The notes under the pieces are model-generated. The model saw only the letters and a list, made by a program, of their open reading frames with translations, searched no databases and was not told where the DNA came from. Of a stretch of 64,000 bases of DNA, positions 2,128 to 63,917 are shown piece by piece (position 1 is the stretch's first letter; every line of letters begins with the position of its first letter). Origin of the DNA: Ferribacterium limneticum (GTDB lineage: Bacteria > Pseudomonadota > Gammaproteobacteria > Burkholderiales > Rhodocyclaceae); assembly GCF_020510585.1 (NCBI RefSeq), contig NZ_CP075190.1, forward strand, positions 4,152,001 through 4,216,000. The letters run 5' to 3'. Made by a program: the position numbers and the translations under genes.

Positions 2128-3474
2128 TTAGCAACTTTCCACAGGCAGTGCAAGGATAAATTCCGCCCCGCCCCCCGGGAGGTTGTGGGCGCTGAGTTTG
2201 CCGCCATGCCGTTCGACGATGCTGTAGCTGATCGACAGGCCAAGACCGGTGCCCTGACCGACCGGCTTGGTGGTGAAAAAAGGCTCGAACAGGCGGCCCA
2301 GATGTTTCTCGGAAATCCCCGGTCCGTTGTCGGCAAAGCGCAGGATCACCATGCCATCTTCGATGTTGCCGCTGACGGTCAAGGCGGGTTCCCGCTGGCT
2401 GGCCGTGGCGTCGCAGGCGTTCTGGACGAGATTCATGATGACCTGCTGGAGTTGCCCCGACGAACCGGAACATTTCAAATTTGGCGATATTTTCGTGTTG
2501 ACCGTGAAATTGGCCGCCGCGCTCTGCACGACCCAGCGCACCGAGCGCTCGACGACTTCGTTCAGGCTGACCTGCTCGGGCGTCATCTTGTCGACGGCCG
2601 AAAAGCGCTTGAGCGCATCGACGATGTCACGCGTGCGCTCGGCCCCTTCGATCATGCCGTCGATGAGGTGCGGCATGTCGGCCAGGATGCGGTCGATGCG
2701 CAGCTCCTGACGCATGGCCTGCAAGGCGCCGTCTTCGGCCGCATCGCTGGCATGCACCGCGCCGAGGTAGCTTTCGAGCCGGCTGGCGTAGCGCTTGAGC
2801 GACAGCACGTTGCCAAGCACGAAACTGATCGGGTTGTTGAGCTCATGCGCGACGCCGGCCACCAGACGGCCGAGCGACACCATCTTTTCAGCGTGCAGCA
2901 ACTGGCCTTGCGTCCGCTTGAGATCATCGTGCGCCTGGCGCAAAGCCGAATAGGCACGGCGCAATTCGCCGACCGGGCGGCCGGTGACGACCATGCCCAT
3001 GAGCTTGCCGGTCTGCGACAGGCGCGGCGTGCAGTTCATCGATACCGGCACGGTCGAGCCGTCGCCGGCGCGCAGGAAGAACTCGCAGTCATGGACACCT
3101 TCGCGACCGTAGCGGGCGAAGATGTCGCGTGCCTTGGCCCGTTCGACATCGTCGGCGAAGAGGTCGAAGACTGGCGTATGTTCGAGTTCGCCGGCCGTCT
3201 TGCCGGAGAAATGCTGCAGCGATGAATTGACCTCCTCGATGCCGCCGTTGCGGTCGCAGACGATCAGGATGTCCGACATCGAGGCGAGGACGCTCTCGAT
3301 GAACTGGTGCGACTCTTCGAGCGCGGCATTCTTTTCTTCGAGGGCGACTTCGTATTGCAGGAGGTCGTTGTAGACCTCGTCCATTTTCTGGATGACCTCG
3401 ATCCAGGCCTGCTCGCCACCCGGCGGCAGGGGCGACTCGCCGGACAGGTCAGCGGGCGGGGCGATAGTGGACAT
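2128..3474 (-). CDS. hoxJ: Hydrogenase-regulating sensor histidine kinase HoxJ/HupT
   Basis: A 448-residue soluble kinase with a coiled-coil lead-in, a PAS domain (about 60-170), an H-box AGVAHELNNPISFVLGN with His210, an N-box around Asn352, and DNGPG and GTGLGL ATP-lid motifs. The H-box context (LNNPISFVLGN...LKRY) is characteristic of the HupT/HoxJ family. These kinases receive the H2 signal from the sensor hydrogenase HoxBC and act on HoxA. I chose the ATG at 3474, which overlaps the end of nikR by 26 bp; an upstream ATG at 3591 would lie deep inside nikR and adds low-complexity sequence. Residues about 323-335 are encoded by a copy of the dispersed repeat. There are no membrane segments, fitting a cytoplasmic H2-signalling complex. 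Confidence 0.88.
   Translation of the reverse strand: MSTIAPPADLSGESPLPPGGEQAWIEVIQKMDEVYNDLLQYEVALEEKNAALEESHQFIESVLASMSDILIVCDRNGGIEEVNSSLQHFSGKTAGELEHTPVFDLFADDVERAKARDIFARYGREGVHDCEFFLRAGDGSTVPVSMNCTPRLSQTGKLMGMVVTGRPVGELRRAYSALRQAHDDLKRTQGQLLHAEKMVSLGRLVAGVAHELNNPISFVLGNVLSLKRYASRLESYLGAVHASDAAEDGALQAMRQELRIDRILADMPHLIDGMIEGAERTRDIVDALKRFSAVDKMTPEQVSLNEVVERSVRWVVQSAAANFTVNTKISPNLKCSGSSGQLQQVIMNLVQNACDATASQREPALTVSGNIEDGMVILRFADNGPGISEKHLGRLFEPFFTTKPVGQGTGLGLSISYSIVERHGGKLSAHNLPGGGAEFILALPVESC
2472..2505 (-). repeat. Dispersed 34-bp repeat, copy 1 (inside hoxJ)
   Basis: Read on the minus strand: ACGGTCAAC, then ACGAAAATA, TCGCC and AAATTTGAAA. It is in frame inside hoxJ and encodes TVNTKISPNLK between the H-box and N-box. 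The first AT tract is degenerate (AAAATA instead of A6). Confidence 0.75.
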
Positions 3475-3913
3475 GGGCTGCGCCGTGTTCGTCGTGGGCG
3501 TGGTGATGTTCCGCTTCGAGCGCGATGACGTTGAGCTTGCCGTGGCGGACGCCGCGTTCGGCCATGAGCGCATCGGCAAATTGCCGGACATCGGCGGTGG
3601 CGCCTTTGAGGATGACCGATTCGAGGCAATTGTTGTGATCGAGGTGGCTGTGCATGGCCGCCACCGTCAGGTCGTGGTGATCGTGCTGCAGGCCGGTCAG
3701 GCGCTCGGCCAGTTCGCGTTCGTGGTGGTTGTAGACGTAGGACAGGTTGGCGACGCAGTGGCCGGACGGCGTTTCGCGCAAGCGGTCGCTCTCGATGGCG
3801 CCGCGGATCAGGTCGCGCACGGCTTCCGAGCGGTTGCTGTAGCCGCGGGCCGCGATGAGTTGGTCGAATTCTTTGGCCAAAGCCTCATCCAAAGAAATTG
3901 TGAAGCGTTCCAT
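3449..3913 (-). CDS. nikR: Nickel-responsive transcriptional regulator NikR
   Basis: A 154-residue protein with an N-terminal ribbon-helix-helix domain (MERFTISLDEALAKEFDQLI...GYSNRSEAVRDLIR) and a C-terminal ACT-like nickel-binding domain. The nickel site is recognisable: QHDHHD, MHSHLDHNNCLE and GVRHG match the E. coli NikR His/His/His/Cys ligand region. The C-terminal tail is longer than usual and His-rich (EAEHHHAHDEHGAAHVHY), which may bind extra nickel. It represses nickel-uptake genes when nickel is plentiful. It is followed by hoxJ with a 26-bp overlap, so nickel and H2 regulators share a transcript. Confidence 0.95.
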   Translation of the reverse strand: MERFTISLDEALAKEFDQLIAARGYSNRSEAVRDLIRGAIESDRLRETPSGHCVANLSYVYNHHERELAERLTGLQHDHHDLTVAAMHSHLDHNNCLESVILKGATADVRQFADALMAERGVRHGKLNVIALEAEHHHAHDEHGAAHVHYRPAR

Positions 3914-3991
3914 GTTCTTTGCTCCGTGCTAAATACGGCCTTAAAACGCGATGCTAGGATGGCCCTCACCACATTCTAACGTCTCGCTCAA

Positions 3992-4318
3992 ATGACCGCT
4001 GCCCTCGATACCGAACAGATCCGCGCCGCCCTGCGCAAGGTGGTCGACCCCGAGGTCGGCGCCAATATTGTCGATCTCGGGCTGATCTACCGCATCGAAC
4101 TCGACGGCAGCCAGCTGCTCATCGAAATGACCATGACTTCGCCGGCCTGCCCGATGGGTGAAATGATCGTCGACGACGCCTACGCCGAACTCGACCGCAT
4201 CCTGCCAGCCGACTGCCAGCCGGAAATCCGCCTCGTCTGGGAGCCGCCCTGGGCGCCATCGATGATGAGCGAAAAGTGCCGCCTGAGTCTGGGCTGGGAC
4301 GAGGCAGACAACGCGTAA
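3992..4318 (+). CDS. DUF59 / MIP18-family Fe-S cluster assembly factor
   Basis: 108 residues. The family pattern is clear: IRAALRKVVDPEVGANIVDLGLIYRIEL, then TMTSPACPMGEMI with the reactive Cys in the SPACP motif. Proteins of this family (PaaD, SufT and MIP18 type) help mature Fe-S proteins. Its stop codon directly abuts the start of the membrane protein downstream, so the two are translationally linked, and a hemerythrin follows. The three together suggest a small redox or NO-stress operon; that role is inferred. Confidence 0.85.
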   Translation: MTAALDTEQIRAALRKVVDPEVGANIVDLGLIYRIELDGSQLLIEMTMTSPACPMGEMIVDDAYAELDRILPADCQPEIRLVWEPPWAPSMMSEKCRLSLGWDEADNA

Positions 4319-5386
4319 ATGGCTGATCTCAAACTCGGCGGCCGCTTGCCGCTGCTCTTTTTTGGCATGCTCTCGCTGCTCGGCGGCGTCATGGCCGGCC
4401 TCGGCCGCCTTGGCTGGGATGTTCCCGGCCCGGCCATGCAGGCCGCCGGTGTGCACGGGCCACTGATGATCGCCGCCTTTTTCGGCACGGTGATCAGCCT
4501 TGAACGCGCTGTCGCAGCGGGCCGGAGCTGGGCCTACCTCGCCCCCTTGGCGGCCGGGGCCAGCGGCATTGCTCTGCTCGCCGGCGCACCGTTGCTGCTT
4601 GGGCAGATGCTCGGCAGCCTTGGCGCAATCGGCCTGATCGCCGCCAGCGCCGTTGCCCTGCGCCGCCAGGTCGCCGTCTTCACCATCATCCTGACCCTGG
4701 CCGCCGGCTGCTGGCTGGTCGGCAACCTGCTCTGGCTGGCCACCGGCAACGTCAGCGCTGCCGTCGCCTGGTGGCTGCTATTTCTCGTTTTGACCATCGC
4801 CGGCGAACGGCTCGAACTGACCCGTTTTCTCCCCACGCCGCCGCTCGCCCAAAAGCTGTTCATCGCCATCGTCGGTGTTCTGCTGCTCGGCGCAGTGGCC
4901 GGGCTCGACCGGCTTTTTGCCGGCGGATTGATCGCCCTCGCCATCTGGCTGCTGCGTTACGACATCGCCCGCCGCAACATCGCCACCGAAGGGCTGACCC
5001 GCTTCATCGCTGCCTGCCTGCTTTCCGGCTACGCCTGGCTCTTTGCAGCCGGCCTGCTCGGGCTGGCTGGCGCCTTTGCTCCCGGTCATGAATGGCGCGA
5101 TGCAGCCTTGCACGCCATCGGCCTCGGCTTTGTGTTTTCGATGGTCTTCGGCCACGCGCCGATCATTTTCCCGGCCGTCACCCGCATCAGGATCCCCTAC
5201 CACCCGGCGCTTTACCTGCCGCTCGCGCTGCTCCACCTGACGCTGGCGCTGCGGGTGTTCGGCGGCCTGAACGACAACTTTGACCTGCGCCACACCGCCG
5301 CCCTGCTCAACGGGCTGGTCCTGCTCATATTTATTGCAACGCTGGTGACACTAGTCCGGCGTAACGCCAAACGAGGTGCCCGATGA
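4319..5386 (+). CDS. Polytopic membrane protein, NnrS-like
   Basis: 355 residues with about ten hydrophobic helices. HGPLMIAAFFGTVISLERAVA near the N-terminus and FGHAPIIFPAVTRI in the C-terminal third, each with a conserved His, resemble haem/copper membrane proteins of the NnrS type, but the match is weak and from memory. It begins immediately after the DUF59 stop codon and overlaps the hemerythrin gene by 4 bp (ATGA), so it belongs to a tight three-gene operon. Function is unproven; a role in nitrogen-oxide or metal stress is an inference. Confidence 0.7.
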   Translation: MADLKLGGRLPLLFFGMLSLLGGVMAGLGRLGWDVPGPAMQAAGVHGPLMIAAFFGTVISLERAVAAGRSWAYLAPLAAGASGIALLAGAPLLLGQMLGSLGAIGLIAASAVALRRQVAVFTIILTLAAGCWLVGNLLWLATGNVSAAVAWWLLFLVLTIAGERLELTRFLPTPPLAQKLFIAIVGVLLLGAVAGLDRLFAGGLIALAIWLLRYDIARRNIATEGLTRFIAACLLSGYAWLFAAGLLGLAGAFAPGHEWRDAALHAIGLGFVFSMVFGHAPIIFPAVTRIRIPYHPALYLPLALLHLTLALRVFGGLNDNFDLRHTAALLNGLVLLIFIATLVTLVRRNAKRGAR

Positions 5387-5775: not shown

Positions 5776-5810
5776 ACGCTCCAAAGAGGGGCACAAATTG
5801 TCGGATTTCT

Positions 5811-5845
5811 ACGGTCAACTGGAAAAAACCGCCAAATTTCAAATC
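5811..5845 (+). repeat. Dispersed repeat, copy 2 (intergenic)
   Basis: ACGGTCAACTGG, AAAAAA, CCGCC and AAATTTCAAAT in plus orientation, in the 229-bp gap (5776-6004) between the hemerythrin gene and the AAA ATPase. Nothing else was recognised in that gap apart from the ATPase ribosome-binding site. Confidence 0.85.
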
Positions 5846-9011: not shown

Positions 9012-9080
9012 GCGTTGCGCTTTTCAGGCCGGACTAGCGGCCAAGCATACCAAAGGCATGCGCCGGATAGCACCCTGCGA

Positions 9081-9114
9081 ATTTCAATTTTCGCTGTTTT
9101 TTCCGGTTGACCGT
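9081..9114 (-). repeat. Dispersed repeat, copy 3 (left arm of inverted pair)
   Basis: Minus-strand reading: ACGGTCAACCGG, AAAAAA, CAGCG, AAAATTGAAAT. It pairs with copy 4 only 8 bp away. Confidence 0.9.
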
Positions 9115-9142
9115 GAAATGTCACGGTCAACCGGAAAAAACA
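9095..9142 (-). terminator. Hairpin made from two inverted repeat copies, downstream of nhaA
   Basis: The arms at 9095-9116 and 9121-9142 are complementary without mismatch: about 22 bp, with loop AATG. The hairpin begins 8 bp after the nhaA stop and ends with a T-run in the minus-strand transcript. It also lies between nhaA and the J-like gene (same strand). It should act as an intrinsic terminator built from two repeat copies. Confidence 0.8.
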
Positions 9143-9153
9143 CTGAATTTTTA
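9123..9153 (+). repeat. Dispersed repeat, copy 4 (right arm, touching the nhaA stop)
   Basis: ACGGTCAACCGG, AAAAAA, CACTG and AATTTTTAA. The second AT tract supplies the nhaA stop codon (TAA on the minus strand, 9151-9153). Confidence 0.85.
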
Positions 9154-10317
9154 AGTGTTACCGGGCGAACTGGAAAATCTCAGCCAGACAAAACCGAGCG
9201 CCCCGGCTACCAGCGATGCCATCAGGATGGCCATCTTTGAGGCGTTGACGAGCTCCACGCTGCCGGCGAAAGCCAGGTTGGTGATGAAGATGGACATCGT
9301 GAAACCGATGCCGCCGAGCAGTCCGGCACCCAGGATGTGACGTCGCTTGAGATCGCCCGGCAGGGCACAGACACCGACCGCCACGGCGAGCAGGCTGGCC
9401 AGCAAAATACCCAGCGGCTTGCCAAGAACGAGACCGCCGAGAATGCCCAGGCTGTTGCTCGACAACAGTTCCTGCTGCCAACCCGCCGAGATGACGATCC
9501 CGGTATTGGCCAGGGCGAAAATGGGCAGAACGACAAAGGCGACGGGCTTGGACAGCAGGTGTTCCAGGTGATGCGATGGCGACGATTCATCATCGCCATT
9601 GCCCGAGAAAGGAACGGCGAAAGCCAGCAGAACGCCGGCTATGGTCGCGTGCACCCCGGATTTGAGCATCAGGAACCACATCAATGCGCCGCCCAGCAAG
9701 TAGGGCAGCAGCGCCATGACGCGCAGGCGATTGAGTATGAGCAGCAGGCCAAAAACGGCGAACGCCGCCAGCAGGTAAGCTGGCGAAAACTGCGTCGTAT
9801 AAAAAATGGCGATGACGACAATGGCGCCCAGATCGTCCATGACCGCCAGCGCCGTCAGGAAAACCTTGAGCGAAGCCGGCACCCGGCTGCCCAGCAAGGC
9901 CAGCACGCCGAGCGCGAAAGCGATGTCAGTCGCCATCGGAATGCCCGCCCCGGCCTGCGTTGGCGTATCGGCATTCAGCGCAAAGTGAATCCCCGCCGGA
10001 ACGACAATGCCGCCGACCGCAGCGATGATCGGCAACAAGGCCTTGCGAAAATTCGACAACTCGCCGACATAAAACTCACGCTCCAGCTCCAGCCCGACAA
10101 ACAGGAAAAATACCGCCATCAGCGCATCGTTGGCCCAGTGCTCAAGACTCAGCCCGGCCACCTTGATGTGCCAGAAATCCAGATAGGCCGAACCGAAAGA
10201 CGAATTGGCGACGAGCAGCGACAGGATCGTGCACAAGATCAGCACGATGCCACTCGATTTTTCCGACTCGAAAAAGCGGTTGAAGCTGATGGAGAGTGTG
10301 GTCTGAAGATCGGTCAT
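9151..10317 (-). CDS. nhaA: Na+/H+ antiporter NhaA
   Basis: 388 residues with about 12 transmembrane helices. Hallmarks of NhaA: FFLFVGLELEREF (helix II), GIPMATDIAFALGVLALLG (helix IV), LTALAVMDDLGAIVVIAIFYT with the essential Asp pair MDD (helix V), and GIGFTMSIFITNLAF (helix XI). It exchanges Na+ for H+ for pH and salt homeostasis at the inner membrane. I chose the ATG at 10317, which overlaps the stop of the upstream diguanylate cyclase (ATGA); the frame continues upstream but only into sequence antisense to that gene's context. It is terminated by the repeat hairpin. Confidence 0.95.
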   Translation of the reverse strand: MTDLQTTLSISFNRFFESEKSSGIVLILCTILSLLVANSSFGSAYLDFWHIKVAGLSLEHWANDALMAVFFLFVGLELEREFYVGELSNFRKALLPIIAAVGGIVVPAGIHFALNADTPTQAGAGIPMATDIAFALGVLALLGSRVPASLKVFLTALAVMDDLGAIVVIAIFYTTQFSPAYLLAAFAVFGLLLILNRLRVMALLPYLLGGALMWFLMLKSGVHATIAGVLLAFAVPFSGNGDDESSPSHHLEHLLSKPVAFVVLPIFALANTGIVISAGWQQELLSSNSLGILGGLVLGKPLGILLASLLAVAVGVCALPGDLKRRHILGAGLLGGIGFTMSIFITNLAFAGSVELVNASKMAILMASLVAGALGFVWLRFSSSPGNT

Positions 10318-11942
10318 ATTTTTCCTTCGGCGGGGAGCGACTCGGGCGCCATGGCGTAGCAACTGCGTCCATTCTTTTTGGCGACATACATGGCCAGATC
10401 GGCCGCCTTGAGGAGTTCCCCCGGCTCGCTCAAGCCATCGCTCATGGCGATTCCGATCGAAACCCCGAGTGAATGCGCGACATTTTGCAGTTCGATCGGT
10501 GTGGAAACCACATCGATGCACTTGGTGGCGATTTTTCTCGCTATCTCACCGCTATTGTCCCCCAGATCGGCAATGACAAAAACGAACTCGTCGCCCCCGA
10601 CCCGGGCCAGGGTATCGCTTTGGCGAACCAGCCCGGACAGGCGTCGCGCCACCTCGACCAGCGCGGCATCGCCGTATTCGTGTCCCAGTGCGTCATTGAT
10701 CGGCTTGAACCCATCCAGATCGAGAAACAGGACAGCGACTTTCGACCCATTGCGCTTGGCGCGGGCGAAGGCCTGCAGCATCCGGTCAGCCAGCAGGTTG
10801 CGATTGAGCAGGCCGGTCAGCGGGTCATGATGCGCCATGCGCTCAAGCGCCGTCTGGGTTAGCGAAAGTTTTTCCAGCAAGCGATTGAAGGCGGCCGTGA
10901 GATGGCCGACCTCGTCATCCCGGACCACCGGCAACGGCTTCAACGGAAGCTCCCCCTGAGTCATGCGTTCAGCTAGATCGGCGGCGGAAAATAGCGGGCG
11001 CAGCAGAAACCTGAAGACCAGACCGATGACGACGCAGACAAAAATGACGGCGAGAATCCCGTATTTGACAATTCTCTCCTGCACTCGCGTCACCGCCTCG
11101 AATGCTTCGGCGGTCGGCATTCTGGCCACGACAAACCAGCCGGTGCTTGGCACGTCAGCTACAGCCGCCAGTTCCTCGGTGCCTTTCGCATTGACTGTCA
11201 CCCCGGCCCCGCGAAAGCCCTGCATGGCGCGATCATGCAAAAGATTAACGCCGACCGGCGGCGTGGGTTTCAAAATAAGATCGGGATCGCCAGCCGCAAC
11301 GAAAAGACCATCCTGCGGCGATATCAGCAAATACCCGCCGGAATTTCCTATTTTCCCGTTAAAGACCGGCCCGAGAAAACCGGGAGAATCCAGCGCGCTA
11401 ATGCCTATAAGGACAGCCTGAACGACGCCCTGGTTATCCTTCAACGGAGTGCCCATGGGCAGAACCGGCTTTTTGGTAAAAACGCCGAATTGCGGTTTCC
11501 CTATGCCGGCATTCCCGGCCAGGGCTCTGACAAAATCGGGATAGTGGGCAATAGACGCCCCTCTTCGCCCGGGAACCGCAGGAAAGTCGGCAACGATGGT
11601 CCCTTGTTTGTCGGCCACTACCAATCCGAGCAAAAACACCGGATTGAGCTGGTGACGCTCGGCCAGCCAGGCGGTCAACTGCTCAGGCTGCTTGACTATC
11701 TCAAGCGGAAAGCTTGCTCCGAGACGACTCAGCATGGTCCAGCGCGTCGTCAACTGATGATCGACATCGCCAGCGACGGCCTTGGCCAAAGCGATTTGCT
11801 GAGCAGAAACAACCTCAATCAAATCTTCGCGCAAAAACTTGCTGAGAAAAAAGTAGCGCGCCAAAGCGCCGGAAACGACAAGCAACACCCCAAACAGAAT
11901 CATTCGGGTAACAAGGCTTTTGGAAATTCTGCTGAGGTTCAT
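10314..11942 (-). CDS. Diguanylate cyclase with Cache sensor and HAMP
   Basis: 542 residues: transmembrane helix (about 14-33), a periplasmic dCache-type sensor (about 45-280), a second transmembrane helix (about 293-312: YGILAVIFVCVVIGLVF), a HAMP linker (FRFLLRPLFSAADLAERMTQ), then GGDEF (about 370-530). The active-site motif is intact (RVGGDEFVFV), so it should make c-di-GMP from GTP. The upstream RxxD inhibitory site is not obvious in a quick reading. Its stop overlaps the nhaA start by 4 bp, so the two are translationally coupled. The 140-bp gap upstream (11943-12082) contains nothing I recognise. Confidence 0.92.
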   Translation of the reverse strand: MNLSRISKSLVTRMILFGVLLVVSGALARYFFLSKFLREDLIEVVSAQQIALAKAVAGDVDHQLTTRWTMLSRLGASFPLEIVKQPEQLTAWLAERHQLNPVFLLGLVVADKQGTIVADFPAVPGRRGASIAHYPDFVRALAGNAGIGKPQFGVFTKKPVLPMGTPLKDNQGVVQAVLIGISALDSPGFLGPVFNGKIGNSGGYLLISPQDGLFVAAGDPDLILKPTPPVGVNLLHDRAMQGFRGAGVTVNAKGTEELAAVADVPSTGWFVVARMPTAEAFEAVTRVQERIVKYGILAVIFVCVVIGLVFRFLLRPLFSAADLAERMTQGELPLKPLPVVRDDEVGHLTAAFNRLLEKLSLTQTALERMAHHDPLTGLLNRNLLADRMLQAFARAKRNGSKVAVLFLDLDGFKPINDALGHEYGDAALVEVARRLSGLVRQSDTLARVGGDEFVFVIADLGDNSGEIARKIATKCIDVVSTPIELQNVAHSLGVSIGIAMSDGLSEPGELLKAADLAMYVAKKNGRSCYAMAPESLPAEGKI

Positions 11943-12082: not shown

Positions 12083-13501
12083 CTAATGCACGGTACACAC
12101 CATGCACGGATCAAACGAGCGCACCACATGCTGCACGGTCGGCGGTGCGCCCTCGCCAGCCGGCAGGCCAACGAGGGCCTGTTCGAGCGGGCCGGGCTGA
12201 TTGGAAGCATCGCGCGGCGAGAAGTTCCAGGTGGTCGGGGCGATGATCTGGTAGCGCTCGATGTGGCCGCGCTTGATGCTCAACCAGTGGCCGAGGCTGC
12301 CGCGGGCTGCTTCGACGAGGCCGGTACCGGTGGCGTCGTCGGGCATCTCGCCGTGGGCGCAGAACGGTTCGCCGGGCTGCAGGGCATTCACCCAGCCTTC
12401 CATGGCGGGCAGGACGAGGGCGAGTTCGAGCAGGCGGGCGACGACGCGGGCCATGACGCTGGCGCCTTCGCGCTGCACCAGGTCGCGGGCCAGTGGGTGG
12501 CCGGCGACGACCTGGCGGGCCAGCGCACCGACTTCGTAGGGCTGGCCGGCATAGCGCGGCGCCTTGCACCAGGTGTAGGCGTCGGGCTTGTTGGCGTCGA
12601 CGATGGTTTCGCCCTGCGCCGGGTGGCGCGGTTGGCCGGCCGCCAGCCAGGCACTGGTCGTGTCTTCATCAATGGCGACCGGGTCGAAGGTCGCTGCCTG
12701 CCCGGCTTGCCAGGTGCCGGCCGGAAACAGATCGTAGGCGCCGTACGACAGGAAGGCGTCGTAGGCGCAGCCGAGCTTGTCGAGACCGAGGTCACTGGCG
12801 GCGTGCAGGAAAGCGGAAAAGTCGCCGGGCCGGCCATCGGCCCACGCCAATAGCTGATCCTTGCTGGCCAGTTGGGCGACGGCGGCCAACGAGTCGCCGA
12901 ACAGGCGTTTTTCGAGAAAGCCGCGGAACTCACGGAGCAATGCCAGCAGGCGGATACGCTCGCCAACCGTGATCGCCCGCGTGCTGCCGCCGGGCTGGAT
13001 GGCCAGCGTGTGCGGCCAGCGGCCGGCGAGAAAGCCCATCAGTCGGAGAAAACCGGCGCGGGCCGGCAGCACTTCGGCGGCTGCGTCACCCCTGACCGCC
13101 GTGAAACGCTTTGACACGGCGCCATGCCAGCTTCGGTCGGCATAGGCCGGGCGAGCAAAATCGGGCATGAAAAAGAGGTAGAAATGCGTCAGGTGATCGG
13201 CCAGGTTCTCGGTGGCACATATCAAATTTCGCGATATTTTCCCGTTGACCGTGGGAACGACCCCCATCGCCTCGGCCAGCGCAGAAGCGGCTGCCGCCGA
13301 CTGAGCCACCGAGCAGATGCCACAGATGCGCGGCACGATGGCCAGCGCATCGAGCGGGGCGCGGCCAACCATGATTTGTTCGAAACCGCGGAAGAGCGGT
13401 GAATTGACCTGCGCCGACTGGATGCGGCCGGCCTCGACGTCGAGGCTGACTTCGAGATCGCCTTCGACGCGGTTGAATGGCCCGACGACGATGCGCGTCA
13501 C
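12083..13501 (-). CDS. hoxC: Regulatory (H2-sensing) [NiFe]-hydrogenase large subunit
   Basis: 472 residues. The L1 motif RICGICSVAQS (Cys60, Cys63) and L2 motif DPCMVCTVH provide the four cysteines that bind NiFe. The protein ends exactly at the L2 His, with no C-terminal extension: this is the hallmark of sensor hydrogenases (HoxC/HupV), which need no endopeptidase. It starts at a GTG (13501) overlapping the hoxB stop (GTGA). Residues about 84-94 (PTVNGKISRNL) are encoded by a repeat copy, yet N-G and R-N in it match family positions. With HoxB it detects H2 and signals through HoxJ. Confidence 0.93.
   Translation of the reverse strand: MTRIVVGPFNRVEGDLEVSLDVEAGRIQSAQVNSPLFRGFEQIMVGRAPLDALAIVPRICGICSVAQSAAAASALAEAMGVVPTVNGKISRNLICATENLADHLTHFYLFFMPDFARPAYADRSWHGAVSKRFTAVRGDAAAEVLPARAGFLRLMGFLAGRWPHTLAIQPGGSTRAITVGERIRLLALLREFRGFLEKRLFGDSLAAVAQLASKDQLLAWADGRPGDFSAFLHAASDLGLDKLGCAYDAFLSYGAYDLFPAGTWQAGQAATFDPVAIDEDTTSAWLAAGQPRHPAQGETIVDANKPDAYTWCKAPRYAGQPYEVGALARQVVAGHPLARDLVQREGASVMARVVARLLELALVLPAMEGWVNALQPGEPFCAHGEMPDDATGTGLVEAARGSLGHWLSIKRGHIERYQIIAPTTWNFSPRDASNQPGPLEQALVGLPAGEGAPPTVQHVVRSFDPCMVCTVH
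13220..13252 (-). repeat. Dispersed repeat, copy 5 (inside hoxC)
   Basis: Minus strand: ACGGTCAACGGG, AAAATA, TCGCG, AAATTTGATA. In frame as TVNGKISRNLI. It shares the AAAATATCGC variant with the hoxJ copy. Confidence 0.75.
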
Positions 13502-14499
13502 TTGCTGCCGCCCTTTTTGCGAACGGCCGGCATGACCACCGGGTGATCCTCGACGGCGTTGTTGCGCACGCGCTTCGGCGTCGCCGACTTGGACAGCGCG
13601 GCAAGCGCGACGAACCAGGCTTTCGGCATGTCGGTCGGCAAGCCGATCGGGATGCCGGCCAGCTTGGGCGTTTCCTGAAAGGCGTGGCCGGGCGACTCGA
13701 AACCGGGTTCGGTGCAGGCGATGCAGGCAAAGCCGCCGCGCAGGCAGGAGCCGCTGCCGTTCCACGGCCGCAGGTTGCAATCGGCGTGCGCCTGGGTGCC
13801 CTTGCAGCCGAGGTTTTCCATCAAACAGCCGAGGTCGGACTGCTTCATGGCACTGGCCTTGAATTCGTAAAACTCGTTGCGGGCGCAGCCGTGATGGACC
13901 AGTTCGCCGGCGTAAAGCAGCGGACGGCCGTATTCGTCGAGGTCTTCCGGCCTCAGCCCCTCCAGCGCGGCTTTTTCCAGCGTGTCGACTACCCAGCCGG
14001 GATGCGTCGGGCAGCCGGCGATGTTGATCACCGGCAAGGCGGCCGCCGACTGGAAACCGGCGCCGAGCAGGCCGCCCGGCGTCTGTTCGTCGAACTGCAG
14101 ACCGCAGGCTTCAAGCGGATTACCCGGCGTGTTGGCCGAAAAACCGCCGTAGGCCGTGCACGAGCCGATGGCGAAAACCCATTTGGCGTGGCGGGCCAGA
14201 CGGGCTACCCATTCGGTCAGCGGCCGGCCGCTGCCGGCCATCAGGTGGAATTTGCCGGTGCCGTTCGGGCCGCGCAGCATGGCCCCTTCGATGCACAGGG
14301 CGTCGAAGGCGAGTCGGCCTTCGGCACAGTCTTCGAGGATAGCGAGCGCTTCCTCACCGCTTTCGACCGAGAGCGCCGGATGCCAGAGAAATTCGATGCC
14401 GGCATCGCGCAATTCGTCGAACAGCGAGCGCGGCTCGGAACAGAGCATCGACTGCGTGCAGCCGCCGCAACCGCCACTCTGCAGCCAGAGCACTTTCAT
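13498..14499 (-). CDS. hoxB: Regulatory hydrogenase small subunit
   Basis: 333 residues. The N-terminus begins directly with [19 protein letters not shown], the proximal-cluster cysteines, without a twin-arginine signal, so the protein stays in the cytoplasm as HoxB/HupU does. Further cluster ligands follow: AIGSCTAYGG, NIAGCPTHPG, HHGCARN, LGCKGTQAHADC and ACIACTEPGF. It carries the Fe-S relay from HoxC towards the signalling partner. It overlaps hoxA (ATGA at 14496-14499) and hoxC (GTGA at 13498-13501). Confidence 0.93.
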   Translation of the reverse strand: MKVLWLQSGGCGGCTQSMLCSEPRSLFDELRDAGIEFLWHPALSVESGEEALAILEDCAEGRLAFDALCIEGAMLRGPNGTGKFHLMAGSGRPLTEWVARLARHAKWVFAIGSCTAYGGFSANTPGNPLEACGLQFDEQTPGGLLGAGFQSAAALPVINIAGCPTHPGWVVDTLEKAALEGLRPEDLDEYGRPLLYAGELVHHGCARNEFYEFKASAMKQSDLGCLMENLGCKGTQAHADCNLRPWNGSGSCLRGGFACIACTEPGFESPGHAFQETPKLAGIPIGLPTDMPKAWFVALAALSKSATPKRVRNNAVEDHPVVMPAVRKKGGSK

Positions 14500-15986
14500 T
14501 CGGCCTGCTCCAGCCCGTGGCGAACCAGCTTGGCGCGCAGGCCGACGCGCGACAGGCCGAGTTCGCGGGCAGCCCGCGACTTGTTCCAGCGATGGCGGTT
14601 CATCGCTTCCTTGAGAACGTGCATTTCGAGTTGGTCCATGCGCTCCTTGAGGCCGCCGCTCAAGCCGGCAGCCCAGGCCAGCTCGTCGGATGGCTTGTTT
14701 TCATCAAACTCGCCAACCGGCGTGCGCAACACGCGTGGCGACAGAAGGTCGGCGCCAAGCAGCGGTGTCGTAGACAGCGCAACCATGCGCAGGATTTCGT
14801 TCTGCAGCTCGCGCACATTGCCCGGCCAGCGGTAGGCAGCGATGCTGGCGAGTGCCTCGTTGGTGAAACCTTCGACCGGCTTGCCTAGGGCATTGCAACT
14901 GCTATCGAGCAGGCGGCGGGCGAGCAGCGGCAGGTCCATCGGCCGGTCGCGCAGTGGCGGCACGTGCAGGGCAATGGTAGCCAGACGATAGTAGAGATCT
15001 TCGCGGAAGCGACCGGTACGGACATCGTCTTCAAGATCGCGGTTGGTCGCGGCGATGACCCGAACGTCGACATGGACCGGACGATTGCTGCCGAGCGGGC
15101 GGAACTCGCCCTCCTGCAGTACGCGCAGCAGCTTGACCTGGAAGGCCGGGCTGGTTTCGCCGATTTCGTCGAGGAACAGCGTGCCGCCATCGGCCTGCTG
15201 GAAAAGGCCGACCCTATCCTCGCCGGCCCCCGTGAAGGCACCGCGCTTGTAGCCGAAAAGTTCGGATTCGAGCAGGGTATCGGGCAGGGCGCCGCAGTTT
15301 TCGGTGATGAAAGCCTTGCTCGCCCGGCGGCTTTCGTAGTGGATGGCGCGGGCGATCATTTCCTTGCCGGTGCCCGATTCGCCAGTGACCATGACCGACA
15401 GGTCGAAGGGCGCAACACGCCCGACCATGTCGCAGACGGCGTTGATCGGGCTGCCCGGGGCGCGGATCAGACCGGCCAGGCCGAAGCTGCTTTTGACCTT
15501 TTCCTGCTTGCTGTCGACTTGTCTTTTCAAGACTGGTTCGGCGGTGCGCAGGTCGAGCGACAGACGCTGGTTTTCCTGCTGCAGGCGCCAGACTTCGGCG
15601 GCGCGCTGCAGAGTCAGCAGCAACTGCTCGGGCTGCCAGGGCTTGAGCAGGTATTGCCAGATGCCGGCTTCGTTGACGCCGGTGATGATGTCCTCGGCGT
15701 CGGTGTAGCCGGAAAGGATGATGCGCACGATGTCCGGCCAGCGGCTACGCACTTCCTTGAGAAACTGGACGCCGGTCGTCCCCGGCATGCGCTGGTCGCA
15801 GAGCACGATGCGGACGGCTTGCTCGCGCAGGAGGATTTCCATGCCCTCATCGGCGCTCGACGCGCAGAGCACCTCGAAATCTTCTTCCAGCGTCCGCCGC
15901 AAGGCTTCCTGCGAGCGCACCTCGTCGTCGATGACGAGGATGGCCGGCAAGCGGCGCAGGCTGCTGTGGGAAGACGGAAGGGTCAT
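14496..15986 (-). CDS. hoxA: Sigma54-dependent response regulator HoxA
   Basis: 496 residues. Receiver domain (about 13-130) with ILVIDDE and phospho-acceptor in [12 protein letters not shown]+ domain with Walker A GESGTGKE, the sigma54-contact motif GAFTGA, Walker [10 protein letters not shown]-terminal Fis-type helix-turn-helix ([20 protein letters not shown]). This is the NtrC-type activator of hydrogenase genes. The start at 15986 overlaps the hoxX stop (ATGA); a longer ATG at 16040 lies inside hoxX. GG-N10-GC promoters precede hybO and hupS, consistent with HoxA targets. Confidence 0.93.
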
Positions 15987-19222: not shown

Positions 19223-19417
19223 CAAAAAGAAGGCGACCCTGGGTCGGTGCCGGCTACGCCGGTTCCCTGCGCTACTCGGTGCTGTCGGGGGCTGCGGAAC
19301 TCGGGCTTCGCCCTCAGACAGTCCTCGCCCTTTTTCCGCCAGCCCCTGCGTTGCTCGGCACCTCTCAAGGGGCCCGGTGAAACGATCCGCGCTAGGGCTT
19401 GGGTGCCAAGATGGCAG

Positions 19418-19451
19418 ATTTCAATTTTGGCCGTTTTTTCCAGTTGACCGT
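19418..19451 (-). repeat. Dispersed repeat, copy 7 (centre of the inverted-repeat element)
   Basis: Minus strand: ACGGTCAACTGG, AAAAAA, CGGCC, AAAATTGAAAT; one of the copies closest to consensus. It sits in the loop between the element's two arms. Confidence 0.9.
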
Positions 19452-36403: not shown

Positions 36404-38191
<1,788 letters not shown>

Positions 38192-38194
<3 letters not shown>

Positions 38195-38227
38195 TTCAGT
38201 TTTCCTCTTGTTTTTCCGGTTGACCGT
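38192..38227 (-). repeat. Dispersed repeat, copy 11 (hupS end / hupL start)
   Basis: Minus strand: ACGGTCAACCGG, AAAAAC, AAGAG, GAAAACTGAAATGG. It encodes the last HupS residues and contains the hupS stop, the hupL Shine-Dalgarno and the hupL ATG. Confidence 0.78.
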
Positions 38228-57631: not shown

Positions 57632-59626
57632 ATGATTCCCGAACTCGGCCATTTCGCCCTGATCCTTGCCGCGCTGGTCGCCCTGATCCTCGGCACCCTG
57701 CCGCTGATCGGCGCTCACCAGAACCGCATGGCCTGGGTTGCCGTCGCCCGGCCGGCTGCCTCGGCCATGGCGCTGCTCGTCACCTTCTCCTTCGCCTGCC
57801 TGACGCAGGCCTTCGTGACCAATGACTTCTCCGTGGTCTATGTCGCCCAGCATTCCAATTCGCTGCTGCCGCTGCAATATCGCGTCGCCGCCGTCTGGGG
57901 CGGCCATGAGGGTTCGCTGTTGCTGTGGATGCTGATGCTGACCTGGTGGGCCTTTGGCGTCGCCATGCTATCGAAGCAACTGCCGGAAACGATGGTCGCC
58001 CGCGTCCTCGGCACGCTCGGTCTCGTCGCTTTCGGTTTCATGCTGTTCATCCTGATCACTTCCAGTCCGTTCGAGCGCCTGCTGCCGGCAGCGGCCGAAG
58101 GGCGTGACCTCAACCCGCTCCTGCAGGACTTCGGGCTGGTCATTCACCCGCCGCTGCTCTACATGGGCTACGTCGGTTTCTCGGTCGCTTTCGCCTTCGC
58201 CATCGCAGCGCTGCTTTCCGGCCAGTTAGACGCCGCCTGGGCGCGCTGGTCACGGCCGTGGACGATGGCTGCCTGGTGCTTCCTTACACTCGGTATCGCC
58301 ATGGGTTCGTGGTGGGCTTATTACGAATTGGGCTGGGGCGGCTGGTGGTTCTGGGACCCGGTCGAGAACGCCTCGTTCATGCCCTGGCTGGTTGGCACGG
58401 CGCTCATTCATTCGCTGGCCGTCACCGAAAAGCGCGGCAGCTTCAAGAACTGGACGGTGCTACTGGCCATTTCGGCCTTCTCGCTGTCGCTGCTCGGCAC
58501 CTTCCTCGTTCGTTCCGGCGTGCTGACCTCGGTCCATGCCTTCGCCACCGATCCACGGCGCGGCATTTTCATCCTGATCTTCCTCGTCGCCGTCATCGGC
58601 ACCTCGCTCGCCCTGTTCGCCTGGCGCGCCCCGAAGGTCGGGTTGGGCGGCCGTTTTGCCTTGGTTTCGCGCGAATCGCTGCTGCTCACCAACAACGTGC
58701 TGCTTGTCGTTGCCTGCGCCACCGTGCTGCTCGGCACGCTCTACCCGCTGCTTATTGACGCGCTCGGTGTCGGCAAGATTTCGGTCGGGCCACCGTACTT
58801 CAATGCCGTTTTCGTGCCGGTCATGGCGCCGGTGCTGTTCCTCATGGGCGTCGCTCCCTTCGCCCGCTGGAAGGACGCATCGATCCCGGAAATCACCCGG
58901 ACCGTGCGTTTGGCCATGGTCGCCGCTGCCGTTGTCGCCATCGCGCTGCCGCTGATCTATGGCCACTGGACCGCGCTGACCGCACTCGGCATTCTGCTTG
59001 CCGCCTGGGTTGTCTTTACGACGCTGACCGCTTTTGTCCAACGCGTCCAGCACACCCGCGCCGGCCAGTCTTTCCTGAGTACCGCACTCAAGCAGCCACG
59101 CAGCTTTGTCGGCATGTGCGTCGCCCACTTCGGCATTGCCGTTTTTGTCGTCGGGGTGACCATGGTCAACAGCTTCCAGGATGAAAAAGACATCAAGATG
59201 GCGCCCGGCGATACCGTCGATGTCGCCGGCTACAGCTTCAAGTTCAATGGCGTCAAGGAAGTTCAGGGGCCGAACTACGTCGCAGCGCAGGGCGACTTCG
59301 ATCTCACGGTCGACGGGAAATTTCGCCTGAAAATGAAACCCGAAAAACGCAACTACGCGTCGTCCGGCATGCCGATGACCGAAGCCGCCATCGACGCCGG
59401 TTTCCTGCGCGACGTCTATGTCTCGCTCGGCGAACCGATCGAACGCGACAAGCCGGAAGCCGAATGGGCCGTGCGCGTCTATTACAAACCCTTCGTCGAC
59501 TGGATCTGGGGCGGCTGCGTGCTGATGGCGCTGGGCGGTCTGCTCGCCATGCTCGACCGTCGTTACCGCGCCAAGTCCCGCACTTCGGCCACCGTTACCA
59601 CCCCGGCAGGAAGCCAACACGCATGA
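57632..59626 (+). CDS. ccmF: Haem lyase CcmF
   Basis: 664 residues with many transmembrane helices. WWD domain WGGWWFWDPVENASFMPWL and conserved FVVYVAQHSNSLLPLQYR-like and LLIHPPLLYMGYVGF-like blocks (here SVVYVAQHSNS and VIHPPLLYMGYVG) with haem-ligand histidines. It ligates haem to apocytochromes. Positions 59306-59340 weakly resemble the dispersed repeat (TVDGKFRLKMK in frame) but could be chance. Confidence 0.96.
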   Translation: MIPELGHFALILAALVALILGTLPLIGAHQNRMAWVAVARPAASAMALLVTFSFACLTQAFVTNDFSVVYVAQHSNSLLPLQYRVAAVWGGHEGSLLLWMLMLTWWAFGVAMLSKQLPETMVARVLGTLGLVAFGFMLFILITSSPFERLLPAAAEGRDLNPLLQDFGLVIHPPLLYMGYVGFSVAFAFAIAALLSGQLDAAWARWSRPWTMAAWCFLTLGIAMGSWWAYYELGWGGWWFWDPVENASFMPWLVGTALIHSLAVTEKRGSFKNWTVLLAISAFSLSLLGTFLVRSGVLTSVHAFATDPRRGIFILIFLVAVIGTSLALFAWRAPKVGLGGRFALVSRESLLLTNNVLLVVACATVLLGTLYPLLIDALGVGKISVGPPYFNAVFVPVMAPVLFLMGVAPFARWKDASIPEITRTVRLAMVAAAVVAIALPLIYGHWTALTALGILLAAWVVFTTLTAFVQRVQHTRAGQSFLSTALKQPRSFVGMCVAHFGIAVFVVGVTMVNSFQDEKDIKMAPGDTVDVAGYSFKFNGVKEVQGPNYVAAQGDFDLTVDGKFRLKMKPEKRNYASSGMPMTEAAIDAGFLRDVYVSLGEPIERDKPEAEWAVRVYYKPFVDWIWGGCVLMALGGLLAMLDRRYRAKSRTSATVTTPAGSQHA

Positions 59627-60207
59627 ATCGTTATTTCTGGATCCTCGGCGCCTTTGCGGCGCTGGTCGCATTGCTCGCCGTCGGCCTCGGACTGAATCCG
59701 CGCGATGTTCCGTCACCACTGGTCGGCAAGCCGGCCCCGGCCTTCAACCTCAACGTCCTGGCCACGCCGGAAAAAATGCTCGGGCCCAAGGACATGCAGG
59801 GCAAAGCCTGGCTGCTCAACGTCTGGTCCTCGTGGTGTGTCTCCTGCCGCGCTGAGCACCCGGTGCTCGTCGAGTTTTCGAAGAACGCCAACGTGCCACT
59901 GGTCGGGCTAAATTACAAGGAAGTGCGCGGCGACGGCAATTTAGACATCAGCAAGATGCCGGCCGATGAAGAAAAGAAACTGGCCTTCCAGCGCGCCAAC
60001 CAGTGGCTGGCCCAGCACGGCAACCCGTACACACTGACCGTCATGGACATCGACGGCCGCGTCGGTATCGATTACGGCGTCTATGGCGTGCCGGAAACCT
60101 ACGTCATCGACAAGGCCGGGATCATCCGCATGAAGCACACCGGGCCGATCTCGCCGGACGATCTGAGCAAGAAGATCATGCCGTTGCTCGCCGAGTTGAA
60201 CAAATGA
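59623..60207 (+). CDS. ccmG: Periplasmic thioredoxin CcmG/DsbE
   Basis: 194 residues. N-terminal anchor (about 5-22), thioredoxin fold with SSWCVSCRAEHP active site and cis-Pro region YGVYGVPETYVID. It reduces the CxxCH cysteines of apocytochromes. The ATG overlaps the ccmF stop (ATGA). Confidence 0.95.
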   Translation: MNRYFWILGAFAALVALLAVGLGLNPRDVPSPLVGKPAPAFNLNVLATPEKMLGPKDMQGKAWLLNVWSSWCVSCRAEHPVLVEFSKNANVPLVGLNYKEVRGDGNLDISKMPADEEKKLAFQRANQWLAQHGNPYTLTVMDIDGRVGIDYGVYGVPETYVIDKAGIIRMKHTGPISPDDLSKKIMPLLAELNK

Positions 60208-60692
60208 AGCGCCGCCTGCTGATTGCGCTTTTCATTTTTGGCTCTTTTTTCGGGTCGACCGTAGCATTCGCCGATGCGGCGACTGAAGCGGCCACGGCCG
60301 CCGATCCGGTGGCTGAAAAGCGCCTGCAGAAGCTTTCCGAGGAACTGCGCTGCCTGGTTTGCCAGAACCAGACCATCGCCGACTCCAATGCCGAACTGGC
60401 CCAGGATCTGCGCCGCGAAGTCCGGACCATGATCAAGGATGGCAAGACCGACAAGGAAATCGTCGATTTCATGGTCGTCCGCTATGGCGATTTCGTCCTC
60501 TACCGGCCGCCTGTCAAGGGAATCACGCTGCTCCTCTGGGGCGGACCTGTCGCCCTCATGCTGCTCGGTCTGTTCATCCTGCAGCGCTATCTGCGCCGTC
60601 GCGCCACCCGCATCAATGCCGAAGACCAGCCGCTGTCGGCTGACGAAACCAGCCGCGCCGACGCGATGCTCAAGGAAATCGACCAGAAATGA
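60204..60692 (+). CDS. ccmH: Apocytochrome thiol-handling protein CcmH
   Basis: 162 residues. Signal peptide (about 1-23, AFA-DA), LRCLVCQNQTIADSNAELAQDLR with the CxxC active site, and a C-terminal transmembrane helix (about 108-130). The hydrophobic core of the signal peptide (LFIFGSFFGSTVA) is encoded by a dispersed-repeat copy. Overlaps ccmG and ccmI by 4 bp. Confidence 0.95.
   Translation: MKRRLLIALFIFGSFFGSTVAFADAATEAATAADPVAEKRLQKLSEELRCLVCQNQTIADSNAELAQDLRREVRTMIKDGKTDKEIVDFMVVRYGDFVLYRPPVKGITLLLWGGPVALMLLGLFILQRYLRRRATRINAEDQPLSADETSRADAMLKEIDQK
60229..60262 (-). repeat. Dispersed repeat, copy 12 (ccmH signal peptide)
   Basis: Minus strand: ACGGTCGACCCG, AAAAAA, GAGCC, AAAAATGAAAA. 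Two core changes (GTCGAC, CCCG) but both AT tracts and the spacing are kept. Confidence 0.75.
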
Positions 60693-62313: not shown

Positions 62314-63849
62314 ATGCATTGGTTAACATTGCCCGAACCACGCAAGAACATTGCTCAGGCCTTTCACGACCTGGCATCGGCAAAAACCTGGCTGGCCAGC
62401 CAGCCGCAAGCCCAGCCCATGCACATGCTGGCCGCCATCAGCCTGCAGATCGAGGCCATTGAGGCGTCGACGCTTGCGCCGGCACTGGCCGTCGAACTGC
62501 TCAACCTCTTGCGCACCGCCTCCGTGCCCGGCCAGGAAACCATCGAGCCGCGCTATGTGCGCAAGGCACTGCCCATGCTCGACGACGACCAGCGCGCTTT
62601 CGACGTCGCCCAACGCCTCTGGCTGCGCCTGGGTACATCCTATCTCCGCCTGGCCCCGCATTTCGCCCCGGCCGAAAAAGGCAAACTGCTGCACCGGGCG
62701 GCCTGTGCCATCCGGATGGCTGAATACTGCCATTTCCTGGCCGCCCGGGAATGTCCGGCCCTGCTCGATCAAATACTCTTCGCCATTCTCGATCAGGCCG
62801 AAAGAGATGGCCTGTTGCGCCATTCCCTGCCCGATCCGGACTTCCCCCACCTTGTCGATACCACCATCGCCGGCCATCTGGCCTGGGCTTTCATGCTGCG
62901 CCTGATCGACCCGTATCGACTGTCGGCCGCCCAGCTCGCCGTCGCCAACCGGGCGCTCAGCCGCTGGCGCGAGCTGGCCGGATTCCAGACCATGCCGGAC
63001 GATGACCCGCGAGGCCACTCCGTCGATCTCGGGCCACTGTTTGGCGCCACCTTGCCGGAGGGCATCCCGCGCTGGCTCGAAGTCCCCCGGGTGACCCGCA
63101 AGATCAACCAGCGAATTGCCGCGCTCAAGGAAGGCGAATCACCGGAGGCCCTGAAACTTGGCCGAGAGCTGTCGCCGGCGGCCTGCATCCGCCTGTTGCG
63201 CGACATCGAAGCCAGCCTTGAATCCCACGGCCAGCACCGGAGCACGGAAATTGGCGAAATCGAACTCGCCTTCGGGGCTGAATATGCCTATGCCGCCTTT
63301 ACCGGCGAAATGATCGTGCCGAGCGGATCGCTCGATGCCAGCAGCGCATCGCTGGCCCATCAGCGCACGGCCATGTTCGGTTTCGACCGCGTATCGACGA
63401 TGCCGACCGCCGTCAAGAAACTCAATGTTCCCGGTGAAAACTGGCTGCTGGTGGACGGCAAGGCCATCCGCCCGGCCGACCGCAAGGGCGCCCGCCGCCA
63501 GTCGCCCTGCCTGATCGCCTCGGCCTCGCTTGGCAACCCACGACTTGGGGTCATGGTCGGACTGCAAAGCATTCCCGGCGGCGCGCTGGCTGCCGATCTC
63601 CAGTGGTACGACGAACGCATCGAGGCCGGCCGTCTGGCCCGTCCAGCTGCGCCGGGCCAGACGAACGCCGTGGTGCCCGTATTCCTGCTCCATGACGGGG
63701 ACGACTGTTCGTTGATCGTCCCGAGTATGGCCGGTATCCGGCTCGATACCGGCGTTACGCTGGAGGGAGCCTCGGTCAGCCACCTGATGCCGACCGAAGT
63801 GCTCGAACGCGGCGTCGATTTCGTCCGTTACGCGATCACCAAGCAATGA
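62314..63849 (+). CDS. Uncharacterised 511-residue cytoplasmic protein
   Basis: MHWLTLPEPRKNIAQAFHDL begins a helical N-terminal half (to about 250), and a beta-rich C-terminal half follows (VKKLNVPGENWLLVDGKAI; LIVPSMAGIRLDTGVTLEG). No signal peptide or membrane helix. It resembles large betaproteobacterial proteins of unknown role; a PilZ-like C-terminus is possible but not demonstrable. An SD-like TAAGGAA lies about 8 bp upstream of the ATG. Confidence 0.75.
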   Translation: MHWLTLPEPRKNIAQAFHDLASAKTWLASQPQAQPMHMLAAISLQIEAIEASTLAPALAVELLNLLRTASVPGQETIEPRYVRKALPMLDDDQRAFDVAQRLWLRLGTSYLRLAPHFAPAEKGKLLHRAACAIRMAEYCHFLAARECPALLDQILFAILDQAERDGLLRHSLPDPDFPHLVDTTIAGHLAWAFMLRLIDPYRLSAAQLAVANRALSRWRELAGFQTMPDDDPRGHSVDLGPLFGATLPEGIPRWLEVPRVTRKINQRIAALKEGESPEALKLGRELSPAACIRLLRDIEASLESHGQHRSTEIGEIELAFGAEYAYAAFTGEMIVPSGSLDASSASLAHQRTAMFGFDRVSTMPTAVKKLNVPGENWLLVDGKAIRPADRKGARRQSPCLIASASLGNPRLGVMVGLQSIPGGALAADLQWYDERIEAGRLARPAAPGQTNAVVPVFLLHDGDDCSLIVPSMAGIRLDTGVTLEGASVSHLMPTEVLERGVDFVRYAITKQ

Positions 63850-63851
63850 AA

Positions 63852-63875
63852 AAGGCCCGCCGGTTGGCGGGCCTT
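63852..63875. terminator. Bidirectional hairpin between convergent genes
   Basis: AAGGCCCGCC, loop GGTT, GGCGGGCCTT: perfect 10-bp stem flanked by A-rich sequence on the left (T-run for the minus strand). It terminates the 511-residue gene and/or the minus-strand biotinyl gene. Confidence 0.75.
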
Positions 63876-63882
63876 GAATGCT

Positions 63883-63917
63883 ACAGTCAACCGTAAAAAA
63901 CGGCCAAAAATCAAATC
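63883..63917 (+). repeat. Dispersed repeat, copy 13 (end of biotinyl-protein gene)
   Basis: ACAGTCAACCGT, AAAAAA, CGGCC, AAAAATCAAAT. The distal AT tract touches the stop codon of the minus-strand gene at 63916-63918. Confidence 0.85.

Follow-up and report, generated by a model that had tools for sequence, protein, structure and literature searches.

Uptake sequences have been described, as far as the cited passages go, in two families only, Neisseriaceae and Pasteurellaceae (PMC7811141, PMC12616744, PMC3630211, PMC2346458). In those passages, the uptake signal sequence (USS) of Pasteurellaceae (Hin-type, AAGTGCGGT; Apl-type, ACAAGCGGT) is a core with a crucial central GCGG, followed by two AT tracts about one turn apart, that comes in dialects and evolves by point mutation (PMC7811141, PMC12616744). 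The DNA uptake sequence (DUS) of Neisseriaceae is a continuous word of 10 to 13 bp with an inner CTG, present in hundreds to thousands of copies; its dialects follow phylogeny, some lineages are free of the repeat, and the system goes with type IV pili (PMC3630211). Eight Neisseriaceae dialects and two USS types are distinguished (PMC12616744), and one orientation is favored in the reading frame in both Pasteurellaceae and Neisseriae (PMC2346458). For Verminephrobacter, possible uptake selectivity is reported, with no such motif in the passage cited (PMC4212676). Here we analyze a 64,000-nucleotide stretch of the Ferribacterium limneticum chromosome (contig NZ_CP075190.1, positions 4,152,001 to 4,216,000; the window), in which a first-pass annotation had noticed a dispersed repeat and proposed an uptake-signal-like element in a betaproteobacterium outside the Neisseriaceae.

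The taxonomic part of this proposal agrees with the relatives of the HypF protein encoded in the window, which belong to Azonexus, Dechloromonas, and the Azonexaceae/Rhodocyclaceae. Like the USS, the motif described here consists of a core and two AT tracts about one turn apart, and CGGT is common to its invariant CGGTC and to the USS inner core GCGG/GCGGT, as given in the passages cited (PMC7811141, PMC12616744). Unlike the USS, it occurs in a different taxon, at lower density, with an otherwise different core, a length of about 40 bp (43 bits), three dialects, and no bias of intragenic copies toward gene ends; unlike the DUS, it is a long motif with AT tracts. It shares with the DUS a copy number in the hundreds, dialects, lineages that lack it, and the presence of type IV pili. 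Because the cited papers describe uptake sequences in two families only and the set of traits matches, we take the repeats to be a third uptake-sequence system, a reading that we consider probable: the genome pattern is what we observed, and a function in uptake is what the sequence comparison suggests.

An abundant motif of about 40 bp

We refined a motif matrix on the window together with 20 stretches of 20 kb each, spaced evenly along the same genome (464 kb in total), using the reversed sequence, or the pattern read backwards, as the control. The resulting motif, called D1, comprises 41 columns and 43.4 bits, with the consensus AtTgCCACGGTCAACCGGAAAAAA.GGCCAAAATTGAAATc. Its parts include an upstream A-T-T-n-C-Y, an inner inverted repeat CGGT..ACCG, phased AT tracts, and a closing GAAAT; columns beyond the motif are near background on both sides, and no larger conserved unit was found. 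All 13 copies listed by the first-pass annotation are real and lie in sites scoring 38 to 61 bits, to which the matrix added two more in the window (59300-59340 and a weak site at 42273-42313). The common core that had been noted also exists, although the exact 12-mer ACGGTCAACCGG is present in only 4 of the 13 copies, with one mismatch in 5 and two in 4. The two AT tracts are indeed phased, their starts being 11 bp apart instead of the proposed 12 bp or so, and the element is about 40 bp long, not about 34 bp.

Scanning the 464 kb revealed 100 sites above 12 bits (15 in the window and 85 outside it), compared to 1 in the reversed control. Since 4 of these are second cores of a double-core form, the sites correspond to about 96 elements; by extrapolation, the 4.42-Mb genome (one contig of 4,419,140 bases) would hold about 950 sites. 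Pattern matching gave a similar picture: the 15-mer GGTCAACCGGAAAAA matched 662 times when up to 2 mismatches were allowed, compared to 20 for the backward pattern, and a stricter search for its reverse complement, allowing at most 1 mismatch, gave 443 matches versus 0. The two orientations, both of which had been noted, are used about equally, with counts of 326/336 for the GGTCAACCGGAAAAA matches genome-wide and 50/50 for the sites in the 464 kb. Within the window, the core with up to 2 mismatches was seen 20 times, where 6.4 were expected, and none of 100 shuffles reached this count. Far from being restricted to the window, sites were present in 18 of the 20 sampled stretches, and counts per 20 kb were near Poisson (mean, 4.25; variance, 5.25). 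Two stretches without a site (L039 and L049) are about the Poisson expectation, so we make no claim about motif-poor stretches. One of them, L039, carries polysaccharide genes.

The double-core form was seen in L031, L038 (two copies), and L042. It reads CACGGTCAACCGG, GTTTACTACGGTCTACCGT (a small palindrome), then A6 and the second tract, amounting to about 19 bp extra within the element, and all copies lie outside called genes where they could be classified. In a variant at L050:3032-3090, both arms of the small palindrome are altered (ACGTGAAACGT).

Three dialects within one genus

Dialects were derived from enriched 9-mers and sequence logos, computed on about 100 kb of sequence for each of 12 relatives, plus further genomes. 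Three related dialects emerged. They have CGGTC in common and, downstream of it, an AT tract that lies about 24 bp into the site. D1 is ACGGTCAACCGG-A6. D2 is TGCTGCGGTCGAC, in fuller form TG(C/T)TGCGGTCGAC, followed by a weak A stretch and then GGC.AAttTC, whose distance matches that of the second tract in D1. D3 is TGCTACGGTCGGC, in fuller form AATGCTACGGTCGGC, with A tracts following in the best copies.

Exact patterns were then counted in 60 genomes of the genus (Azonexus/Dechloromonas). The D1 15-mer reached at least 100 copies in 8 of them (147 to 362), with 0 control matches in all 60. The D2 13-mer was dominant in 16 genomes, with 90 to 350 copies (controls summed to 0 to 3 per genome), and the D3 13-mer occurred 124 times in a single genome (G029) and at most once in each of the other 59. 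The 60 genomes thus comprise 25 abundant carriers, 5 weak carriers, and 30 without the motif. When 300 genomes of the order were searched for the degenerate core TGYTRCGGTCRRC, three members of the genus gave 306, 275, and 25 matches, and none of the other 297 gave more than 13, with controls of similar size (background); six of these 297, from other genera of the same family, gave 0 to 6. Among the genomes of the order that were sampled, the motif is confined to the genus.

Two further observations concern dialects. In stretches L190 to L194 of genome G063, GCGGTCGAC is in excess in genes (19 versus 6.4 in the null), and the TGCT that precedes it in D2 is missing; this may be a fourth variant. 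In a collection of viral contigs, one exact D1 18-mer was the sole match (L295:9696-9713).

A foreign island without sites

In the D1 genome G002, comEC is in two parts 33.7 kb apart, separated by an insert (G002:C33:109608-143311, covered by L319 to L321) with a GC content of 51.5% versus 61.5%. Its genes encode a type ISP restriction enzyme, a D5-type primase, a B-type DNA polymerase, a Y-family polymerase, and CHAT and NADAR proteins. This one island holds 0 sites (9 expected) in 33.7 kb, and its flanks hold 7 in 25.5 kb. A similar split of comEC by an insertion of about 33 kb was seen in genome G068 (G068:C1:2218607-2251879).

Aligned coding copies probably arose mostly by substitution

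How did the copies come to be where they are? The 15 window sites, D1 copies except for the weak one, are listed below; six close D1 relatives keep most of them in the region covered.

2471-2511, minus strand: 53.8 bits; within a sensor histidine kinase gene (2128-3591)
5805-5845, plus strand: 57.7 bits; intergenic
9080-9120, minus strand: 56.2 bits; intergenic, left arm of an overlapping inverted pair
9117-9157, plus strand: 46.1 bits; right arm of the same pair; overlaps the end of gene 9151-10521
13218-13258, minus strand: 50.0 bits; in a Ni-dependent hydrogenase large-subunit-like gene (12083-13780)
17196-17236, minus strand: 53.5 bits; in a formyltransferase/enoyl-CoA hydratase-like gene (15983-17662)
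19417-19457, minus strand: 57.9 bits; intergenic
28090-28130, minus strand: 61.3 bits; in hypF (27906-30209), near the 3' end
30046-30086, minus strand: 58.3 bits; in hypF, near the 5' end
34591-34631, plus strand: 38.2 bits; in a HyaE-like gene (34237-34695, minus strand)
38193-38233, minus strand: 38.4 bits; just upstream of a hydrogenase large-subunit gene (36404-38194), whose start it touches
42273-42313, plus strand: weak copy, 25.2 bits, possibly chance or decayed; in a long GGDEF/EAL gene (39546-44567)
59300-59340, plus strand: 40.2 bits; in an nrfE-like gene (57632-59626)
60228-60268, minus strand: 54.9 bits; in an nrfF-like gene (60003-60692), opposite strand
63877-63917, plus strand: 53.9 bits; intergenic, past gene 62314-63849

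Positions 12083-38194 contain a large Ni-Fe hydrogenase and maturation gene cluster (hydrogenase large subunits, hypE, hypF, hyaE-like).

Alignment of the hypF codons around site 30046 in 32 rows revealed that D1 species read GTC AAC GGG AAA AAY TGG CCA, that a D3 species (L091) reads GTC GGC GGC AAA AAT TGG CCC, and that D2-type species (L086, L092, L098, and L132) read GTC GAC GGC. At one codon position, AAC, GAC, and GGC go with D1-, D2-, and D3-type orthologues, respectively; in hypF, the dialects replace one another at the codon level in the same place. Rows of the genus that lack the site are equal in length, and three rows from the outgroup have 2 extra codons. Neither site 17196 nor site 13218 involves a length change when true orthologues are compared, and the D1 copy at 34591 is length-neutral as well. 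At hypF site 28090, D1 genes are longer, in frame, than most others, and at site 34591 of the HyaE-like gene two D3 species carry a full D3 motif together with an 18-bp in-frame gain. Of the five aligned coding sites, four are therefore length-neutral for D1 among genus orthologues, with 28090 as the exception, and discrete insertions with empty sites in relatives are not the pattern at these four. From the length-neutral sites, set against 28090 and the D3 form of 34591, it is probable that substitution dominates at the aligned sites, with some in-frame length change.

In the HypF tree, one fork of 10 rows (our genome, L071 to L076, L078, L079, and L096; 95/95) coincides with the best scorers of the D1 matrix, D3 rows aside. 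Automatic dialect labels were poor on this tree, with single chance D3 9- to 10-mers in L071, L075, L076, and L085, and with L078 and L079 labeled D2 though D1-like by score; counts of label changes were not used.

Placement of sites in and between genes

Genes were called with a simple codon-based caller (coding fraction, 0.856). Of the 100 sites, 47 lie inside genes, with 41 between genes and 12 at gene edges, compared to expectations of 83%, 12.5%, and 4.3%. For 39 of the 53 non-coding sites, a stop codon is closer than a start codon (baseline, 56.5%; P = 0.012); the median distance to the stop is 50 bp, and random non-coding positions have a median of 353 bp. Of the 47 sites inside genes, the coding strand carries 33 (P = 0.008), and 25 share a single frame, encoding roughly (I/V)-x-(A/T)-V-(N/D)-x-K.

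Synonymous shuffling within genes does not reproduce these coding copies. In the genes of our genome, the D1 9-mer ACGGTCAAC occurs 33 times versus 5.5 in the null (maximum, 10), so the repeat stands out from a codon-shuffled background as well as from the genome-wide control. With the full matrix, coding sites number 24 versus 0.2 above 40 bits and 47 versus 18.5 above 12 bits; the high null in the latter case arises because the encoded peptide itself matches or has been shaped. The D2 9-mer behaves similarly in D2 genomes (39 versus 5.2 in G030, 26 versus 3.1 in G032, and 21 versus 4.2 in G020), and four genomes without the motif (G018, G027, G035, and G071) are at or near the synonymous null.

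Alternative explanations

Could the sites serve an intracellular DNA-organizing or segregation protein, of the nucleoid occlusion, macrodomain, or condensin-loader type, with dialects reflecting coevolution of protein and sites? This is the main rival, which we regard as unlikely. Hundreds of highly specific sites, evenly spread with near-Poisson counts and bearing an inverted repeat and phased AT tracts, would suit such a protein. KOPS (FtsK-orienting polar sequences), Chi, and SlmA- or Noc-type motifs show strong replichore polarity or terminus exclusion, and neither was found here. GC skew puts the terminus near 2 Mb, and 20-kb stretches at 2.2 to 2.88 Mb hold 3, 7, 3, and 5 sites; an apparent gap at 1.46/2.05 to 3.0 Mb among the matches listed was ruled out by the sites in stretches sampled there. 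Exact copies among the matches listed are split forward/reverse 42/38 and 22/41 on the two chromosome arms (P = 0.04), which is only a weak difference in orientation. Moreover, half of the genus lacks the motif, which would be unexpected for a housekeeping site, and upkeep inside genes, to the point of shaping the protein, demands a strong force.

It is very improbable that the repeat is a small non-autonomous mobile element inserted many times, such as a miniature inverted-repeat transposable element (MITE) or a repetitive extragenic palindrome (REP). The motif resembles these in being short, dispersed, and enriched between genes, and the length differences at hypF 28090 and in the two D3 HyaE-like genes, together with the longer double-core form at a few intergenic places, speak for insertion. 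Against it are the lack of a conserved unit beyond about 40 bp, the 47 sites lying wholly in genes with a preferred frame, the equal length of genus orthologues without the D1 site at hypF 30046, 17196, and 13218, dialects that differ by core substitutions at the same place, and hundreds of copies without the flanks of a transposed copy. Clean mobile insertion, which the first-pass annotation had named as a competing account, is thus not what most aligned genes display.

We give just as little credence to a role in transcription or RNA (a terminator, regulator site, or RNA element) as the force behind the spread. Non-coding copies do favor gene ends and convergent gaps (1.19 sites per kb versus 0.52 in divergent gaps), and the inverted pair at 9080-9157 folds as a long, strong hairpin of about -41 kcal/mol. 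This hairpin has no T run after it on either strand, and we rejected the pair as a terminator on that ground. Nearly half of the sites are inside genes, on both strands, and close pairs on opposite strands number only 3 among the 100 sites (2 that overlap as inverted pairs and 1 that is looser); frequent inverted pairing, which the first-pass annotation gave as a trait of the Haemophilus signal, applies to few copies here. Copies at gene ends may have been recruited for a secondary role, as the cited source describes for known uptake sequences (PMC13020248).

Finally, an artifact of common Val-Asn/Asp codons in a GC-rich genome has next to no chance of being right: part of the coding signal survives synonymous shuffling at the 12-bit threshold and GCGGTCGAC is a moderately common 9-mer, but the excess above 40 bits, the 41 intergenic sites, and sister genomes of similar composition with none argue against it.

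Uptake machinery and points against an uptake signal

An uptake signal fits the abundance of the motif, its two orientations, AT tracts, spread both within and between genes, enrichment downstream of stop codons, clade-wise dialects, and absence from the island. The likeness drawn by the first-pass annotation is sound in these respects, and the inverted pairs and the link to competence are the parts that were not borne out. Competence genes do exist: our genome has an uninterrupted comEC frame of 696 amino acids, itself bearing a D1 site, and 14 pilin-like genes, among them FimT and a ComP_DUS-family pilin. comEC integrity, FimT, and the ComP-family pilin do not track the motif or its dialects.

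Several results weigh against an uptake signal, and some of them concern this machinery. Of the 60 genus genomes, 56 have comEC, carriers and non-carriers alike; it is interrupted in two carriers (G002 and G008) and uninterrupted in most motif-free genomes. With incomplete genomes included, comEC was interrupted, partial, or missing in 3 of the 25 carriers, 1 of the 5 weak carriers, and 7 of the 30 others, giving no clear link between comEC integrity and the motif in the 60 genomes. Decay of comEC as the cause of motif loss was rejected, there being no clear association with carrier status. Known DNA-binding minor pilins include FimT of Legionella and ComN/PpdA of Pasteurellaceae; all 22 genomes searched here had a gene of the FimT/GspH family. 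FimT identity was compared leaving out G082 and G020, with the G068 sequence truncated: among 8 D1 genomes, G000, G002, and G076 are 85 to 87% identical to one another and other D1 pairs 20 to 52%, and across dialects D1 G080 is 65% identical to D2 G030, and D2 G065 is 61% identical to motif-free G071. Because FimT varies independently of dialect, it is not supported as the recognizer. The Pfam ComP_DUS pilin, present in 56 of 60 genus genomes regardless of motif, was likewise rejected as the receptor, since neither its presence nor its scores follow dialect; in Neisseriaceae, according to the passages cited above, the ComP tree is largely congruent with dialects. A dialect-following receptor was therefore not found among the two candidates tested.

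The remaining points on this side are the estimated density of 1 site per 4.6 kb, below what published DUS and USS counts imply; the in-frame length changes at 28090 and in the D3 HyaE-like genes; the weak replichore difference; and the absence of a gene-end bias of in-gene sites (19 of 47 in the outer 40%, 18.8 expected). The source cited describes intragenic copies biased to gene termini in Pasteurellaceae and, in the passage at hand, does not claim this for Neisseriae (PMC2346458); such a bias is not a defining trait of the class.

The FimT/PilE minor-pilin cluster (L235 to L264 and L296 to L318) shows extreme variability among related species, apparently being swapped without regard to the remainder of the genome.

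How an uptake signal could work and what it would mean

If the repeats are an uptake signal, they would act as a tag for self-recognition, the uptake machinery preferring DNA of its own kind. A surface protein, probably on a type IV pilus or pseudopilus, would contact the CGGTC core, and the A6 tract and second AT tract one helical turn on could bend or soften the DNA for passage through the outer membrane. DNA bearing the motif would be taken up and recombined more often, and point mutations that create or improve the motif would spread by themselves where the protein or intergenic region tolerates them. A shift in receptor preference would be followed by the copies site by site, giving a dialect, and lineages losing the preference would lose their copies. 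More tentatively, at somewhat less than even chances, we suggest a language of self-DNA recognition that arose independently, as the third of its kind, and has at least three dialects in a single environmental genus. Its receptor would be neither FimT nor a ComP-family minor pilin, its core would have converged on the CGGT of the Pasteurellaceae signal, and its dialects would have rewritten hundreds of sites in place, altering protein residues.

The open-licence PMC literature returned nothing for Dechloromonas with "uptake sequence" or for the core 12-mer, and no Rhodocyclaceae uptake sequences among the matches listed, which is weak evidence of absence. According to the passages cited, known uptake sequences belong to two families of animal-associated bacteria; the motif described here belongs to free-living betaproteobacteria. 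A third system with species-level presence and absence and three dialects would let old questions be addressed in an independent replicate: are uptake sequences a by-product of receptor bias or do they serve species recognition, how do dialects switch, and what role do the AT tracts play? If this reading is true, one could predict from dialect which species exchange DNA with one another in the communities of sludge and sediment, in which Dechloromonas and Azonexus are important.

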